Below are positions 35,610 through 42,426 of a stretch of 64,000 bases of DNA, piece after piece. Numbering within the stretch: the stretch's first letter is position 1; each line of letters begins with the position of its first letter. Source of the DNA: Enterobacter cloacae complex sp. ECNIH7 (GTDB lineage Bacteria; Pseudomonadota; Gammaproteobacteria; Enterobacterales; Enterobacteriaceae); assembly GCF_002208095.1 (NCBI RefSeq), contig NZ_CP017990.1, positions 1,984,001-2,048,000 on the forward strand, read 5' to 3'. The notes beneath the pieces were generated by a model. It made no database searches. It was not told the origin of the DNA and saw only the letters and a list, made by a program, of their open reading frames with translations. A program made the translations under genes and the position numbers.

Positions 35610-37109
35610 TTACGGTGCGACCCCGGTGAGTCGCTTCGCCAGCTCGCTTCGGGTGAGTGCTTTTGAAAAATACCATCCCTGAATCAGCGCATCGGGATAT
35701 CTGCTTGCAATAAAGCGATATTGAATTTCATTTTCCACGCCCTCGAAAACAAGCGTTTTATTCAATCTTGCAAGGGCATCGCTGAAGATTACAAAGATGT
35801 TTTGCTTATAATGCTCGCTGATGCCGTCCACCAGCGACTTATCGATTTTGATTTCATCATATTCAAGCAGCGAAAGGCGGGCGAGGTTCGAGTTCTGCAC
35901 GCCAAAATCATCTATTGATATTTTAACGCCGAGCGATTTCAGCTCCTGACAGAATTCCCCGAGGATATCTGCCGTGGAAACGGCTTTCTCAGAGAGTTCG
36001 ACCTTCATCAGGGAAAGGGGAAGGTGGTTGGCAAAACACGCACGGCGCAAAATAGTAATGAACTGTCCATCTTCAATTTCCTTGTGCCCAACGTTTATTG
36101 AGACTATCAGCTGGTGTTTTATCGCCAGAGGGGCAATTTCGGAAAGGGATTTTTCGATAATATTACTGTAATATTTTTTATACAGGCCGATCTTCTTAAT
36201 TAATGGGATAAACAGCTCCGGAGAGACGTCCCCGTGCTTTTGATCGCGCCATCTCGACAGAACTTCGACACCCACGATTTTTTGATCGTGAATGCGAATA
36301 ATGGGCTGATAGTTAACGCTGATAGTATTCGTGATGACGGCTTTTATCAGCGTACGTTCCAGAGAAAAACGGTCTTCATAGATACGGAAGATAAATAACG
36401 TTATCGCAATCCAGATAAAACAGAGAATTACTGCGAGAAGCGCAAAGATAAACGGCGGCAACGAGGCCAGCCCGGCGTCGTGATGCTTCACGATGACGCA
36501 CAGGTCCCAGAAGGTGCTGCACTGTGTCAGAGTCAGGGTAAACAACGTCGAATGCAGCCAGCTCTGCTGATTTAGCTCCGTGGCGGCCGAAAAAAAGACT
36601 CTGCCGAAGTCTTTGGTGGTAGCACTGAGCGAATAGCTTGCGGTAACCGGGGTGAATTTATCGTAAGCATAGCGGGAGGTGAAGATAATAATATTATTAT
36701 AAATTGCCGCATTGCCCGTGAAAAAGTCTTTTCTCGAAAACTGGGCCAGGAGAAAGCCCCTCGGCGTTTTATGCAGTTCTGCAGGAAGTGCAACGGGCGT
36801 CGCGAGTTTCCCCCAAAAAGCGGTACAGACAATTTTTCCCTTCTCAATAAAGCCGATATCGGCAAAATAAAGATTATTAAGCTTAATTTGTCTGTAGCGA
36901 TCGAGGCTGGTTTTATCACATCCCTGCGTCGTGATGCTTTTGAGACCCAGCGCCACGCTTTGGGACACGTCTTCTGAATAATGTAAAAGGGTACGGGATA
37001 TTTCACGCTGTTTGCTCTTCTGCTGACCGATGATTACAACATTGACCGCATAAAGAGACAGGAAGACCAGAAGCGTTGAAGCAATAGCAACGGCAATGAG
37101 CTTTTTCAT
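35610..37109 (-). CDS. CSS-type EAL cyclic-di-GMP phosphodiesterase
   Basis: About 499 residues from MKKLIAVAIAST at 37109 (the frame is open to 37172). TM1 is about residues 2-24, the periplasmic CSS-like sensor about 25-215 with the short motif GCDKTS in place of Cys-Ser-Ser, TM2 about 220-245, then an EAL domain. Catalytic positions look present: EVL for EAL, SINV, the ELSE Glu, SIDDFG, KIDKS, EGVE and QGWYF, though DDFGVQNSN differs from DDFGTGYSS. It should hydrolyse cyclic-di-GMP, with activity perhaps set by periplasmic thiol state. AT-rich codon use (many AAA, ATT, TTA) contrasts with neighbours and suggests transfer. Confidence 0.85.
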   Translation of the reverse strand: MKKLIAVAIASTLLVFLSLYAVNVVIIGQQKSKQREISRTLLHYSEDVSQSVALGLKSITTQGCDKTSLDRYRQIKLNNLYFADIGFIEKGKIVCTAFWGKLATPVALPAELHKTPRGFLLAQFSRKDFFTGNAAIYNNIIIFTSRYAYDKFTPVTASYSLSATTKDFGRVFFSAATELNQQSWLHSTLFTLTLTQCSTFWDLCVIVKHHDAGLASLPPFIFALLAVILCFIWIAITLFIFRIYEDRFSLERTLIKAVITNTISVNYQPIIRIHDQKIVGVEVLSRWRDQKHGDVSPELFIPLIKKIGLYKKYYSNIIEKSLSEIAPLAIKHQLIVSINVGHKEIEDGQFITILRRACFANHLPLSLMKVELSEKAVSTADILGEFCQELKSLGVKISIDDFGVQNSNLARLSLLEYDEIKIDKSLVDGISEHYKQNIFVIFSDALARLNKTLVFEGVENEIQYRFIASRYPDALIQGWYFSKALTRSELAKRLTGVAP

Positions 37110-37314
37110 TTTCCAGTTATCCAGTCCGCTCCCTGATTTCACAAATCTTAACACAGCCAGGGCAAGGAACAAGCCTGATAGTCACGTCATGTGAGTAAAT
37201 GCCGGCAGGTGAACTCATACGAAAGTATCAGTTTTTTAAGACAATTCTCATCTAAGCTATTTTCATTGTTATAAGCAATACCGGGTTAGCACAGGCTCTT
37301 CAACCAGAACATCC

Positions 37315-38865
37315 ATGCTTGATTTTTCTATTAAGGAAAACATCGTGCGCAACGTGATGATCCCTATTCTTAGCGCTCTGTTTCTTTTTCTGAGCGGCAT
37401 TTTGATTATTAACTGGCAGCTATGGCAGATGGCGAAGCTGAGTAATAGTCATACCGCCACGGCCAGCACCCAAAAAATAGAAAACATTCTGGCTGAAGCA
37501 GTCAGTGCGGCCAGCACGGCGAAGCGCGTTGCGGCCGAAGGGTGTACCAGTAGCGGACAGCTGGCGCTGGGGACAGAGGCAGCGCTAAAACCGCATCTGC
37601 GCGCCATCATGATCGAGCAGCAGGGTAAGATCATCTGTACTTCCCTTCCCGGGAATGGCGTGTTGATTATTCATCCTGAGACGTTACCTGCCGAAAAATT
37701 GGTGCTGTTACCGGGCAGTCGACTGGTGAACGGCATTCCGGTGCTTGTCTTTCAGATGCCCATCGTGGGAGGGCGCGTCATCGTCAGCATCAGTGACGCG
37801 CATTTACAGGACGTCATTGCAAGCGCATCGAACAGCATGGATCTGGGGCTGGTTGTCGGCGAAAGCATGCTTGTTCGCAACGGTGCAGTGAGGGGCTGGA
37901 AAGCGGCCTCCTGGGCGGGGGCGCTTACGGCATCAACGCAATTTCCCTTCAGCCTCGCCTGGCAACCTCCTGCCTTTTTCAGCCTGACGCGGCTTTTGCA
38001 ACAGGGATGGAGCCTGATACTGCTTATTCTTGCGCTATCGGTGGCGGTGGGTATTTTGATCCGCCGATGCAAGGGGAAAAGTACCTCATTTGAAGACGAC
38101 TTACGTAAGGCCATTTTGCAGGGGGAGATCGTGCCTTATTACCAGCCGATCGTGAACGGCGAAACCGGCGGGTTATACGGCGTTGAGGTCCTGGCAAGAT
38201 GGAAGCATCCAAAGTCAGGCTTTATCCCGCCGGATGTCTTTATTCCGATTGCCGAACGTAGCGGGTTGATTATACCGCTGACCAAAGGGTTAATGGCAAA
38301 AGTGGTGACCCAGCTTAAGCCGCTTTTGCCTAAGCTACCGGACGGGTTTCATATCGGGGTAAACATCAGCGCCAGACATATTAATGCGCCTTCATTTATC
38401 GGTGACTGCCGCGTCTTCGGGAAGGGGTTTCAGGGTAAAGAGGTCAAACTGGTTCTCGAGGTGACCGAGCGTGAACCGCTGATCGATAATCCCCACCTCG
38501 TGGAAAACCTCAACATGCTGCATAACGCCGGCTTTGTTATTGCCCTGGATGATTTTGGTACGGGTTATTCCGGGCTGTCATGCCTTAATGCGCTGGCCAT
38601 TGATTATATTAAAATTGATAAAAGCTTTGTGAACCGGGTTTCAGAGGAAAAGGACTCAACGATCCTGCTGGACTGCGTCATTGACCTGGCGAAAAAACTC
38701 TCTTTACGCATTGTTGCTGAAGGCGTAGAAACAAAAGAGCAACTGGAGTATCTCAACCGTAATGAGATAACCCTGTTACAGGGATATTATTTTGGTAAGC
38801 CCGTCTCCTATATCGATTTTATTAAAGTCATTTTATCTAAACCCAGGGAGACCGTTAGTTTGTAA
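37315..38865 (+). CDS. CSS-type EAL cyclic-di-GMP phosphodiesterase
   Basis: 516 residues. TM1 is about 15-36, the periplasmic sensor about 40-235 with EGCTSSGQ holding the CSS-like Cys, TM2 about 237-256, and a complete EAL domain: VEVLARW, GVNISARH, LEVTERE, ALDDFGTGYSGLSCL, IKIDKSF, AEGVETKEQ and LQGYYFG. All metal and substrate residues expected for an active enzyme are visible. It is divergent from the other EAL gene (205 bp) and followed 125 bp later by a cyclase, so one locus can both make and destroy cyclic-di-GMP. Ligand unknown. Confidence 0.9.
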   Translation: MLDFSIKENIVRNVMIPILSALFLFLSGILIINWQLWQMAKLSNSHTATASTQKIENILAEAVSAASTAKRVAAEGCTSSGQLALGTEAALKPHLRAIMIEQQGKIICTSLPGNGVLIIHPETLPAEKLVLLPGSRLVNGIPVLVFQMPIVGGRVIVSISDAHLQDVIASASNSMDLGLVVGESMLVRNGAVRGWKAASWAGALTASTQFPFSLAWQPPAFFSLTRLLQQGWSLILLILALSVAVGILIRRCKGKSTSFEDDLRKAILQGEIVPYYQPIVNGETGGLYGVEVLARWKHPKSGFIPPDVFIPIAERSGLIIPLTKGLMAKVVTQLKPLLPKLPDGFHIGVNISARHINAPSFIGDCRVFGKGFQGKEVKLVLEVTEREPLIDNPHLVENLNMLHNAGFVIALDDFGTGYSGLSCLNALAIDYIKIDKSFVNRVSEEKDSTILLDCVIDLAKKLSLRIVAEGVETKEQLEYLNRNEITLLQGYYFGKPVSYIDFIKVILSKPRETVSL

Positions 38866-38990
38866 AACGAAATAAAGACGAGCTTCAGTTGCATGCTTAA
38901 GTGCAATTCATTTTCCTCTTATCCCGAGCTTTGTTACAGTGACAAGAGTTGTCAGCCAGGGATGTCAGGCGTGATAAGGTGGAAAAGCTC

Positions 38991-40463
38991 GTGCATGTGA
39001 AAAATACTTTTTACACAACAACCATTACCGTCATCATTGTCTCATTGATCATCTCGCTGTCGCTTGCCGTCCAAATTGCCACGTCCAGACAGCAGTCAAT
39101 TCAGCAAATTAATACCAGCGTTGCTAACCTGAGCCATACCCTTGATGTCTACACCGAGGGGATCATGCGCCAAAGCGAAATGTTAATTACTACCGTTTCC
39201 GACATAATAGAAATTTATGGCATGACGCCGCAACAGGCGACCAATATTCAGCGGATGATAAATAATCAGGATAATCTTCTTACCCAGATTAATAATGTGG
39301 TTGTTTACGACGCTCAGGGCGATATCTTTACCGCGTTGCACGAAACTTTTACAGGCCCACGCAAAGGATCGGACAGGTCATTTTTTATCTATCACAAGGA
39401 AAATAAAAATCAGCAGATTTTTATTGGTGAGCCGGTGGTAAGCAGAACCAATGGCAAATGGGTCATTACCATTAGTCGTCGCCTTGAAACCCAGACCGGA
39501 GCATTTAACGGTGTGGTGGTGGTGACGTTGGGTATCGAGAATTTTCTCGCGCTTTACGGGCAGATTAATATTGGTCACCTGGGCGTCATTGGCTTAACGA
39601 CACAATCCGGCGTGCTGCTGGTCCGGTATCCCTTTAAAAATACCTATATTGGCACGATTGTTTCTGATTCACCCCTCTTCAGGAAATACCTAAAGGTACA
39701 AAATACGGGGATAGCCAGCTCCATCTCGCGGTTTGATAAAATCGAGCGCATCTATGCCTATGAGAAAAACAGACGCTACGGACTGGTCACCACCGTGGCG
39801 GTTAGCATTGATGAAGCTCTTGCCCCCTGGCGCAAGCAGGCTATTCAGCTGGCGCTACTCATTTTCGTGTTCACGGCGATACTCATCGTAGCGTCATACT
39901 TCCTGTATTCCGACCTGTCCCGAAAAACACGTGATAACAAAGCGCTGAAGATTATTGCCTCAGAAGATGCGTTGACCGGGCTGTACAATCGCCGCGTATT
40001 TGATGAAAAAATCCTCTCGGACATCGCTATGTGTGCCGCGCATGACGCGCCGATTTCGATACTGATCGTGGACGTTGACTACTTCAAAAAATACAACGAT
40101 AACTACGGCCATCCGGAAGGGGATCGGTGTCTGGCTATGCTCGGAAACAGCCTCAGGGAGAGCCTTACCCGTGATAATCAGCTTGTGGCGCGCTACGGCG
40201 GAGAGGAGTTTGCCCTGATATTACCTGATACGGATATCCAGGAGGCGCTTCGACTGGCGCAGACGATCATTCGCAACGTGTTTTCCCTGCAAATCGCCCA
40301 TGCCTTTAGCCCCTTCGGCCGGGTGACGGTAAGCGTCGGTATTTCTACCGCCCGTGCCGTCGACATCGCGGGCAGCCAGCAGAATATCATTATTGCCGCT
40401 GACCAGGCGCTCTACCAGGCAAAACGCGCAGGACGTAACCGGTACGCGTTTGTTGGGGTATGA
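38991..40463 (+). CDS. Membrane dCache-GGDEF diguanylate cyclase
   Basis: About 490 residues. TM1 is about 9-30, the periplasmic dCache domain about 35-280, TM2 about 287-308, and the GGDEF domain has the active motif GGEEFALILP preceded by DALTGLYNRR and IVDVDYFKKYND. The inhibitory I-site RxxD reads RDNQ, so product inhibition is probably lost. The frame is open from TTG at 38949; I prefer GTG at 38991, nine bases after AAGGTGG, which gives MHVKNTFYTTTITVI. Four bases after its stop is the 3' end of a minus-strand small-RNA candidate. Confidence 0.88.
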   Translation: MHVKNTFYTTTITVIIVSLIISLSLAVQIATSRQQSIQQINTSVANLSHTLDVYTEGIMRQSEMLITTVSDIIEIYGMTPQQATNIQRMINNQDNLLTQINNVVVYDAQGDIFTALHETFTGPRKGSDRSFFIYHKENKNQQIFIGEPVVSRTNGKWVITISRRLETQTGAFNGVVVVTLGIENFLALYGQINIGHLGVIGLTTQSGVLLVRYPFKNTYIGTIVSDSPLFRKYLKVQNTGIASSISRFDKIERIYAYEKNRRYGLVTTVAVSIDEALAPWRKQAIQLALLIFVFTAILIVASYFLYSDLSRKTRDNKALKIIASEDALTGLYNRRVFDEKILSDIAMCAAHDAPISILIVDVDYFKKYNDNYGHPEGDRCLAMLGNSLRESLTRDNQLVARYGGEEFALILPDTDIQEALRLAQTIIRNVFSLQIAHAFSPFGRVTVSVGISTARAVDIAGSQQNIIIAADQALYQAKRAGRNRYAFVGV

Positions 40464-40467
40464 ACAG

Positions 40468-40600
40468 AAAAAAAAGCCCACTCAGGAGTGGGCAAAAAAT
40501 ACTGGAAGCAATGTGAGCAATGTCGTACTGAATACCTGAGTGTTACGCTCAACTATTCAGTGTTGAGAAAGATAATCTTTCTCAACAAAAGATGCAACCC
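40468..40600 (-). ncRNA. Candidate CRP-controlled small RNA
   Basis: On the minus strand, from an inferred start near 40600, three structured modules follow one another. A 13-bp-arm hairpin lies at 40587-40561 (TGTTGAGAAAGAT / ATCTTTCTCAACA). A second stem at 40560-40528 has arms CTGAATA/TATTCAG with inner TGAG/CTCA. After a 30-base unpaired stretch containing CATTGCTTCC comes a terminator GCCCACTC/GAGTGGGC (40493-40476) with eight Us. The terminator faces only the minus strand, yet there is no minus-strand protein gene here. A CATAAA -10 (40611-40606) and a perfect CRP core centred 62 bp upstream of the start complete it. I do not recognise the RNA. Confidence 0.6.
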
Positions 40601-40654
40601 CACAGTTTATGCGGCAGGTTCTTTTTGTTGGTGAATAATTGCGCACTCTCTCAT

Positions 40655-40670
40655 TGTGATGCCTGTCACA
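40655..40670. promoter_or_regulatory. CRP site between yeaQ and the small-RNA candidate
   Basis: TGTGA-TGCCTG-TCACA is a perfect CRP core. Its centre is about 62 bp before the inferred minus-strand RNA start (class I spacing). It is about 44 bp before a possible yeaQ start read from TGCTATTCT (40692-40700), a sigma-S-like extended -10. Confidence 0.75.
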
Positions 40671-40748
40671 AATTTCCTTTTTGAAATCCTGTGCTATTCT
40701 TTTTTGTGTCGTTGATTTAATGACAAAAACCATACAGAGAGGAAAGTT

Positions 40749-40997
40749 ATGGGAATTTTATCCTGGATTATCTTTGGGCTTATTGCGGGTATTCTGGCGA
40801 AGTGGATTATGCCGGGCAAAGATGGCGGTGGTTTTATCGTCACCGTAATACTGGGTATTATCGGCGCGGTAGTCGGCGGCTGGATCAGTACGCTGTTCGG
40901 TTTTGGCAAAGTCGATGGCTTTAATTTCGGCAGCTTTGCCGTCGCGGTCATCGGTGCGCTGGTTGTTCTGTTTATCTACAGAAAAATCAAAAGCTAA
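40749..40997 (+). CDS. yeaQ: YeaQ/YmgE family (GlsB/transglycosylase-associated) membrane protein
   Basis: 82 residues, three predicted TM helices and a Gly-rich core (AKWIMPGKDGGGFIVTVILGIIGAVVGGWI). This family is stress-inducible and of unknown function; its transglycosylase-associated name is historical. E. coli has two paralogues, yeaQ and ymgE. The neighbourhood (yoaJ, yoaK, dgcP, yoaF, yeaO) is that of yeaQ, hence the symbol. GAGAGGAAAGTT precedes the ATG. Confidence 0.88.
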   Translation: MGILSWIIFGLIAGILAKWIMPGKDGGGFIVTVILGIIGAVVGGWISTLFGFGKVDGFNFGSFAVAVIGALVVLFIYRKIKS

Positions 40998-41011
40998 GGC
41001 TTAAAAGCGTT

Positions 41012-41041
41012 AAAAAAGGCTGCCAGATGGCGGCCTTTTTT
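41012..41041 (+). terminator. Terminator after yeaQ
   Basis: AAAAAGGCTGCC, AGAT, GGCGGCCTTTTT; 11 of 12 positions pair. The A-tract on the left lets it also end yoaJ transcription from the other side. Confidence 0.82.
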
Positions 41042-41052
41042 ACGTGGCGGGT

Positions 41053-41127
41053 TTACCACCAGCCAAGCTGCGCGCCGGCAAACGCCGCGATGGCTACGAT
41101 CAGCATAATGAGGGTCGTTTTTCTCAT
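41053..41127 (-). CDS. yoaJ: YoaJ, 24-residue membrane peptide
   Basis: Reads MRKTTLIMLIVAIAAFAGAQ followed by LGWW, which aligns with E. coli YoaJ (MKKTTIIMMGVAIIVVLGTE then LGWW). One TM helix after a short basic start. Its ATG follows the yoaK TAA with no gap (TAAATG), so it is translationally coupled. Function unknown; in E. coli the protein was confirmed as expressed and membrane-located. Confidence 0.85.
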   Translation of the reverse strand: MRKTTLIMLIVAIAAFAGAQLGWW

Positions 41128-41226
41128 TTATGCCCCAGGCGCCGCGTAACCACCGACAAAAAACCATGCTAAAAAAATCACCGCCGTTATAAAAATAACG
41201 ACCGGGAAGAGGATCCCTATTCTCAT
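41128..41226 (-). CDS. yoaK: YoaK, 32-residue membrane peptide
   Basis: Reads MRIGILFPVVIFITAVIFLA then WFFVGGYAAPGA, nearly identical to E. coli YoaK (same length, same GGYAAPGA ending). A single TM helix occupies most of the peptide. GATGGTATG precedes the start. It is followed directly by yoaJ; both lie between yeaQ and dgcP, on the dgcP strand. Confidence 0.88.
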   Translation of the reverse strand: MRIGILFPVVIFITAVIFLAWFFVGGYAAPGA

Positions 41227-41271
41227 ACCATCACCTGTTTCGGTTTCTATAACGCCGTAGAGTGTACGGGG

Positions 41272-42300
41272 TTAATCCATAGTGAGAAAGCGTGTTTTGC
41301 TTTTTCCTTTCTTATCCTGATACATCGCGACATCCGCGTCGCGTAATGCGCTGTCCGGATCGGTTACCCCAGGGTCTACTTCGATAACGCCGACGCTGGC
41401 TCCGGGGTAAATGAGGTTGACGCTACCCAGCCAGTATTCACCGGCAATACAGGCGCTGAGGCGCGTTTTGAGCAGCGTGACCTGCGCGTTATCTCCTTCA
41501 CAGTGGGATGTGCTCAACGACGCCACCAGAAACTCATCGCCGCCCAGCCGGCCAATGATATCGTCCTGCTGTTTTTCTTCCGTCAGACGCTTGCCCACTT
41601 CAATCAGGAACTGGTCGCCGGCCTCGTGGCCGTAGCGATCGTTAATCAGCTTGAAATCATCCAGATCGATGAACGCGATGACGGTGTTACGCTTAAGGTG
41701 CCGCGCCAGGGAAAACAGCGTGGTCAGATCTTCAAAAATGGCGCGACGGTTGGGTAAACCGGTAAGGGCATCCGTGTAAGAGTGCGCGATGAGGGCCGCA
41801 TTGGCTTCGCGAAGCTGGGTTACCAGCGACTCTTTCTGAATGGACTGGGCAATCAGCCCGGCGAATAACTTCAGAACCTGTTCACCACGCTCGCTAAGCG
41901 GCTTTCTGGCCGTGCTGGTGGCACAAAGCGTTCCGTAGAGTGAACCATCCGCAAGATGGACAGGAATACTCATGTAGGTCGTAATGCCGAGCGCTTTCGC
42001 CGCCTCGCACTCCGGCCAGCGTTCGGGAACGTCGTTGCTGAATACGGTGTCGCTATCCAGCGCGCGCTTACACAGCGTTTCATCCCAAGGGACGCTCAGC
42101 CCCTCAGGGATTGTCATCTGCTTGCTGTTGCGGGCGTAGAGGATATGCTGCAGTCGGGCTTCGATATCTACCTTGGTGAGGTAAGTCGACTCCATGTCAG
42201 TCACGATCTCCAGCATCTCCAGCAGCTGACGAACGAGACCTTCAAGGGATTGTTCAGTGGCGAGGGTTTCTGAAACACGGGCAAGGATAATATCCGACAT
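41272..42300 (-). CDS. dgcP: GAF-GGDEF diguanylate cyclase DgcP (YeaP)
   Basis: 342 residues, soluble. The N-terminal GAF domain (about 20-165) contains YLTKVDIEARLQHILYARNS and SIPVHLADGSLYGTLCA; the GGDEF domain (about 180-340) has DALTGLPNRRAIF, FIDLDDFKLINDRYGH and the active motif GRLGGDEFLV. The I-site position reads QQDD, without the Arg. I use MSDIILARVSETLA at 42300 to match E. coli DgcP; the open frame reaches 42342. yoaK ends the gap downstream. A small-RNA or leader-attenuator candidate lies 127-204 bp upstream on the same strand. Confidence 0.93.
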   Translation of the reverse strand: MSDIILARVSETLATEQSLEGLVRQLLEMLEIVTDMESTYLTKVDIEARLQHILYARNSKQMTIPEGLSVPWDETLCKRALDSDTVFSNDVPERWPECEAAKALGITTYMSIPVHLADGSLYGTLCATSTARKPLSERGEQVLKLFAGLIAQSIQKESLVTQLREANAALIAHSYTDALTGLPNRRAIFEDLTTLFSLARHLKRNTVIAFIDLDDFKLINDRYGHEAGDQFLIEVGKRLTEEKQQDDIIGRLGGDEFLVASLSTSHCEGDNAQVTLLKTRLSACIAGEYWLGSVNLIYPGASVGVIEVDPGVTDPDSALRDADVAMYQDKKGKSKTRFLTMD

Positions 42301-42426
42301 GACGTAGAATGACTCCCAGGCAGAAGACGTCTGCATCTGCATGTTATGCTGAGTTTTTAGACTTCAGGCATAGTAAAACATGAATATAAAAAATTTAATA
42401 TATGCAGGGAGTGGGCCGCAGGATAG

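Follow-up and report, generated by a model that had tools for sequence, protein, structure and literature searches.

A probable ryhB-2 small RNA gene with a putative Fur box, divergent from yeaQ in an Enterobacter genome

Background

The closest described counterparts of the locus analyzed here are the second ryhB copies of Salmonella enterica and Klebsiella pneumoniae. In Salmonella, where the copy is called ryhB-2, isrE or rfrB, a table row gives the arrangement as 'ryhB-2 isrE STM1273/yeaQ -> <- ->' (PMC2515195), and the promoter work excerpted in PMC8970401 gives an RNA of 98 nt and describes the ryhB1 and ryhB2 promoters as both overlapped by Fur sites. According to the same excerpt, a mutation in each promoter relieved Fur repression, whereas a different one (mut1) had no such effect, and Fur is countered by sigma S. 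The Salmonella copy is described in a passage of one review as located on a genetic island specific to S. enterica (PMC4211561) and in a passage of another paper as Salmonella-specific (PMC4228915). K. pneumoniae likewise has a second ryhB copy, the start of which is stated to have been mapped and which is stated to be expressed (PMC3415461). The published signs on Hfq dependence of ryhB-2 are mixed; a Salmonella Hfq table lists 0 and 0 reads for ryhB-2 (PMC2515195), and a review statement has Hfq affecting the stability of Yersinia RyhB1, not RyhB2 (PMC4211561). Both points weigh against the reading proposed here. Our literature search for ryhB as a small RNA in two copies in 'Enterobacter cloacae' found no paper.

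Identity and structure of the small RNA

We analyzed a window of 64,000 nucleotides (the whole stretch of DNA under study), in which a first-pass annotation had proposed an unrecognised, CRP-linked small RNA on the minus strand beside a diguanylate cyclase gene. Family membership, the second copy, synteny, the sequence and conservation of the Fur box, complementarity to sodB and the spacing of the CRP site were all computed. An Rfam scan of the whole window gave a RyhB (RF00057) match on the minus strand at 40469-40532, with 72.2 bits against a gathering cut-off of 55 (E = 1.4e-11 over the window) and the covariance model aligned over positions 1-67 of 67; the claim that the RNA matches no known enterobacterial sRNA is overturned by this score. 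Seven other Rfam families in the local scan all fell below their own cut-offs, and RyhB was the sole match at the gathering cut-off in the whole window. A minus-strand sRNA gene with a terminator and an unpaired pairing region had thus been recognized correctly; it was only taken for an unrecognised one. It is a real sRNA gene of an already known kind, RyhB-2, most likely under Fur. With a probability of roughly 95%, we regard it as ryhB-2, corresponding by position to Salmonella ryhB-2/isrE/rfrB and probably repressed by Fur. It would be a paralogue of RyhB, the well-known iron-sparing sRNA linked with iron limitation in enteric bacteria. The gene, of about 94 nt, would occupy 40468-40561 on the minus strand, its 5' end near 40561 being placed from the promoter and from what we take to be the layout of E. 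coli RyhB.

The 94-nt RNA (40561 to 40468) folds at z = -3.96, and none of 200 shuffles did as well; the fold consists of a bipartite 5' stem, a largely open middle part and a terminator. The 5' stem-loop (40528-40560, minus strand), which lies exactly where the first-pass annotation had placed a bipartite stem, is paired in 99.3% of cells across 41 sequences, and one of its 11 pairs is altered on both sides, in the single row of S. arizonae. The unpaired RyhB core, the mRNA-pairing region (40498-40526, minus strand), carries two substitutions over the alignment of 41 distinct sequences, one in S. arizonae (locus L119) and one in locus L061. It is followed by a terminator stem-loop with a loop of 4 (40476-40493, minus strand) and a U-run of eight T (40468-40475, minus strand); the terminator had been described at 40468-40493 with eight pairs, and its eight T are there, but the fold gives seven pairs. 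Both-side changes are found at two of these seven pairs, and the innermost pair is unformed in 9 of the 41 sequences. For the whole set of 41 distinct RNAs the share of paired cells is 98.4%, against 22-49% in slid versions of the structure, and both-side changes at three pairs (two in the terminator, one in the 5' stem) were reached by 7 of 500 shuffles. The RNA has the conserved pairing core and rho-independent terminator of RyhB.

The genome has two RyhB matches. The other, ryhB-1 (C1:332503), lies between an acetyltransferase gene (NF007527, 352 bits, cut-off 236) and an oxidoreductase gene (NF007574, 761 bits, cut-off 352), which are presumably yhhY and yhhX, the site of canonical ryhB. 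The two copies share the 29-base core, an upstream Fur-like box (14/19 in ryhB-1) and the terminator, but differ in genome place and in their 5' half. With Salmonella ryhB-2, the copy in the window shares its standing as second copy, convergent with its 3'-side gene and divergent from yeaQ, and a Fur box over the promoter; it differs in the 3'-side gene (STM1273 in Salmonella, a GGDEF gene here), in RNA length (98 nt against about 94 here) and in the sequence of the 5' stem (S. arizonae row). The annotation is thereby settled as two RyhB genes in this genome; for ryhB-2, the regulator indicated by the sequence is Fur rather than CRP.

Promoter and Fur box

The 13-bp palindrome noticed earlier is present as a 27-base element at 40561-40587 (13/13 pairs), and the window has two such odd palindromes with 13-base arms. 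Judged by its sequence, its most plausible role is that of a Fur box over the -10, not that of an RNA hairpin. Its core at 40565-40583 is a putative Fur box, overlying the inferred -10 and matching the Fur consensus at 15/19 on the plus strand and 14/19 on the minus strand. Matches of 15/19 averaged 0.03 per resample when the window was resampled 100 times by a first-order Markov model, and one turned up in 2 of 2,000 resamples made from the intergenic stretch. A second Fur-like match of 15/19 (35717-35735, minus strand) lies inside an EAL coding region; it is perhaps due to chance, but counts against the reading. The first-pass annotation had taken the palindrome for a structured module of the RNA, which we rejected because it lies over the inferred -10, because it fits the Fur consensus and because S. 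arizonae (17/19) and Intestinirhabdus (16/19) match that consensus better at the same place than the window does (15/19, better strand in each case).

The probable -10 of ryhB-2 is TATCTT (40569-40574, minus strand), found in 31 of 32 aligned sequences, and the probable -35 is TTGCAT (40592-40597, minus strand), found in 26 of the 32. With TTGCAT, TTGCAA or TTGTAA as the -35, the spacing to the -10 is 17 in all 32. The hexamer CATAAA (40606-40611), earlier proposed in this role, is present but was rejected as the -10 on being kept in just 6 of the 32. The start is accordingly moved from near 40600 to near 40561. Across 56 ryhB-2 loci, the best Fur match on the ryhB strand is 13 to 16 of 19 and the box is centred 49 bases ahead of the core in 50 of them and 55 bases ahead in the other six; on the better strand, and with identical loci counted once, the match is 14-17/19 in 45 of 45 distinct loci. 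A Fur box over the promoter, as expected of RyhB, is therefore indicated by sequence match and conservation. In the presence of iron, Fur would sit on the palindrome at 40561-40587 and cover the -10, keeping ryhB-2 off; when iron is lacking, transcription would run from near 40561 to the U-run at 40468 and yield an RNA of about 94 nt. From the computed features we infer where transcription starts, the binding of Fur, a possible role of Hfq and the repression of targets.

CRP site and yeaQ

The gene divergent from ryhB-2, which serves as the synteny anchor, is yeaQ (40749-40997, plus strand) of the GlsB/YeaQ/YmgE family (PF04226; NF007771 above its cut-off), and its E. coli match carries the annotation yeaQ. 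Between the two genes lies a TGTGA-N6-TCACA element, the putative CRP site TGTGATGCCTGTCACA at 40655-40670, which had been read as linking the sRNA to CRP. The site is present and conserved, occurring with at most two mismatches in its ten set bases in all 56 ryhB-2 loci (41 match perfectly, 14 have one mismatch and 1 has two); the linkage is what fails, as the site tracks yeaQ. Its centre is 84.5-90.5 bases from the yeaQ ATG across the 56 loci, whereas it is 117.5-141.5 bases from the ryhB core, or 129.5-141.5 without S. arizonae and Intestinirhabdus, in both of which it is 117.5. The distance of 62 bp before the start, earlier taken as typical of a class I site, becomes about 101 bp from the centre of the site to the start near 40561.

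The site also remains where ryhB-2 is absent. In E. coli, two further Escherichia and a Citrobacter, none of which has a ryhB core within 1,500 bases upstream of yeaQ, it begins at -95 before that gene; in the same-genus genome G022, from which ryhB-2 is gone, it begins at -94 and has one change. In the Klebsiella, Pantoea and Serratia YeaQ loci examined no such site was found at that place, which speaks against a universal role. An E. coli genomic SELEX list names yeaQ among new CRP targets (PMC3105977). From the tight spacing to yeaQ, the persistence of the site without ryhB-2 and this SELEX listing, the predicted CRP site is most likely that of yeaQ, which it would serve from upstream. Conceivably, RyhB-2 could also be acted on by the site, with carbon and iron signals meeting at the divergent promoter; the two lie in one 285-base intergenic stretch and the site occurs at every ryhB-2 locus. 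We nevertheless consider this improbable, given a spacing that ranges over 24 bases to the ryhB core (12 without S. arizonae and Intestinirhabdus) against 6 to yeaQ, and a site that stays where ryhB-2 is missing. CRP as regulator of the sRNA was thus set aside as the main reading, the spacing being neither fixed nor the site tied to the sRNA gene.

On the yeaQ side, an extended -10 is seemingly present at 40693-40700, reading GCTATTCT here and GCTATCCT in many relatives. To us it resembles, presumably, a promoter of the sigma S type.

Neighboring genes

The cyclase gene reported beside the sRNA is indeed there, as a Cache-GGDEF gene (38949-40463, plus strand) that ends at 40463 and is convergent with ryhB-2 on its 3' side. 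It belongs to a cluster of c-di-GMP genes (35610-42342) surrounding yeaQ and ryhB-2, along with two genes of CSS-motif EAL proteins (35610-37172, minus strand; 37315-38865, plus strand) and a GAF-GGDEF gene (41272-42342, minus strand). The association is loose, a GGDEF C-terminus being found downstream at 18 of 56 ryhB-2 loci (14 of 45 with identical loci counted once), and cyclase linkage was not retained as a feature of the gene. A three-way switch can be imagined, with Fur over the -10, a shared CRP site and read-through of the convergent cyclase mRNA acting as a perfect antisense sponge; if true, it would tie c-di-GMP, carbon and iron signals together, but we hold it to be very improbable.

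In G022, a gene end like that of the EAL protein at 37315-38865 directly precedes yeaQ, the cyclase and ryhB-2 being missing between them. Past yeaQ, at 41053-41226 on the minus strand, two small membrane proteins are encoded, a YoaJ-like one of 24 aa (46.7 on its model, below the cut-off of 54) and YoaK of 32 aa (above its model cut-off).

Distribution among relatives

RyhB matched twice in 31 of the 35 same-genus genomes, and the second copy lies beside yeaQ in 31 of these 31; a second copy beside and divergent from yeaQ is thus common to the window, the same-genus second copies and S. arizonae. In one further genome (G032), the 5' part of ryhB-2 and its Fur box are present next to a stretch of N. 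The gene is absent in 3 of the 35 relatives (G005, G008 and G022): in the first two the YeaQ search gave merely a 66%-identical YeaQ paralogue, and in G022 yeaQ and the CRP site are kept. These absences could suggest a decayed, unexpressed ryhB copy, which we find very improbable, as 41 distinct sequences preserve the core, the 5' stem, the terminator and the Fur box and the ryhB-2 genes of Salmonella and K. pneumoniae are stated to be expressed in the cited excerpts (PMC8970401, PMC3415461). That the RNA is a new CRP-activated sRNA outside known families, starting near 40600 with the palindrome as its hairpin, has next to no probability: the palindrome, CATAAA and CRP site all exist, but the Rfam match, the rarity of CATAAA beside a nearly invariant TTGCAT/TATCTT pair, the looser spacing of the CRP site to the ryhB core than to yeaQ and its persistence without that core in E. 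coli, two other Escherichia, a Citrobacter and G022 all go against it.

Beyond the genus, a ryhB core lies upstream of yeaQ in 24 of the best 80 of at least 478 named YeaQ loci, in records named Enterobacter, Lelliottia, Leclercia, Huaxiibacter, Pseudenterobacter, Silvania, Salmonella arizonae, Intestinirhabdus and one other Enterobacteriaceae. The yeaQ loci of S. arizonae and Intestinirhabdus exceed the Rfam RyhB cut-off. Three records named Enterobacter (L104, L123 and L129) have no ryhB core upstream of yeaQ. Since the 80 loci were picked by YeaQ, the link of ryhB to yeaQ was tested by the 31 same-genus second copies instead. A RyhB match was found in at least 191 of 295 genomes in a family-wide search, which was left out of this test. 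Twenty further ryhB loci of other genera, fetched as possible second copies, had YeaQ upstream in none of the 20 and were excluded from later counts. In none of 5,426 E. coli genomes was 80% of window positions 40440-41010 covered at one place, and, unlike the window, the one K. pneumoniae yeaQ locus examined (L097:1-5246) has no RyhB.

Better supported than the three-way switch is a milder reading, in which ryhB-2/isrE has long been linked to yeaQ in several genera of Enterobacteriaceae and is not specific to Salmonella. Its occurrence at the same yeaQ site in records of Enterobacter, Lelliottia, Leclercia, Huaxiibacter, Silvania, Pseudenterobacter and Intestinirhabdus is contrary to the Salmonella-only descriptions, and the division of labour between two RyhBs could therefore be studied outside Salmonella.

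Target pairing

Against the 5' regions of the yeaQ, GGDEF and EAL genes, the RyhB-2 core paired no better than with shuffled targets (193, 150 and 146 of 300 shuffles as good, respectively), and for the RyhB-1 core 188, 64 and 90 of 300 shuffles were as good. An excerpt on Salmonella lists yeaQ as a target of RyhB-2 (PMC4228915), which counts against our reading given the null pairing here, and a review passage names STM1273 (PMC4211561).

The sodB gene of the genome was located by PF02777. We took this gene to be sodB from its N-terminus. Over its start codon, the RyhB-2 core gave a predicted duplex of -25.5 kcal/mol and the ryhB-1 core one of -25.0 kcal/mol, with 3 of 300 shuffled targets as good in each case. 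The predicted duplex is consistent with pairing to iron-protein mRNAs such as sodB, and we infer for this copy a RyhB function, Fur-repressed and probably pairing with sodB and similar mRNAs. The unpaired core would pair with the translation starts of dispensable iron-protein mRNAs, such as that of sodB, and lower their expression, alongside ryhB-1.
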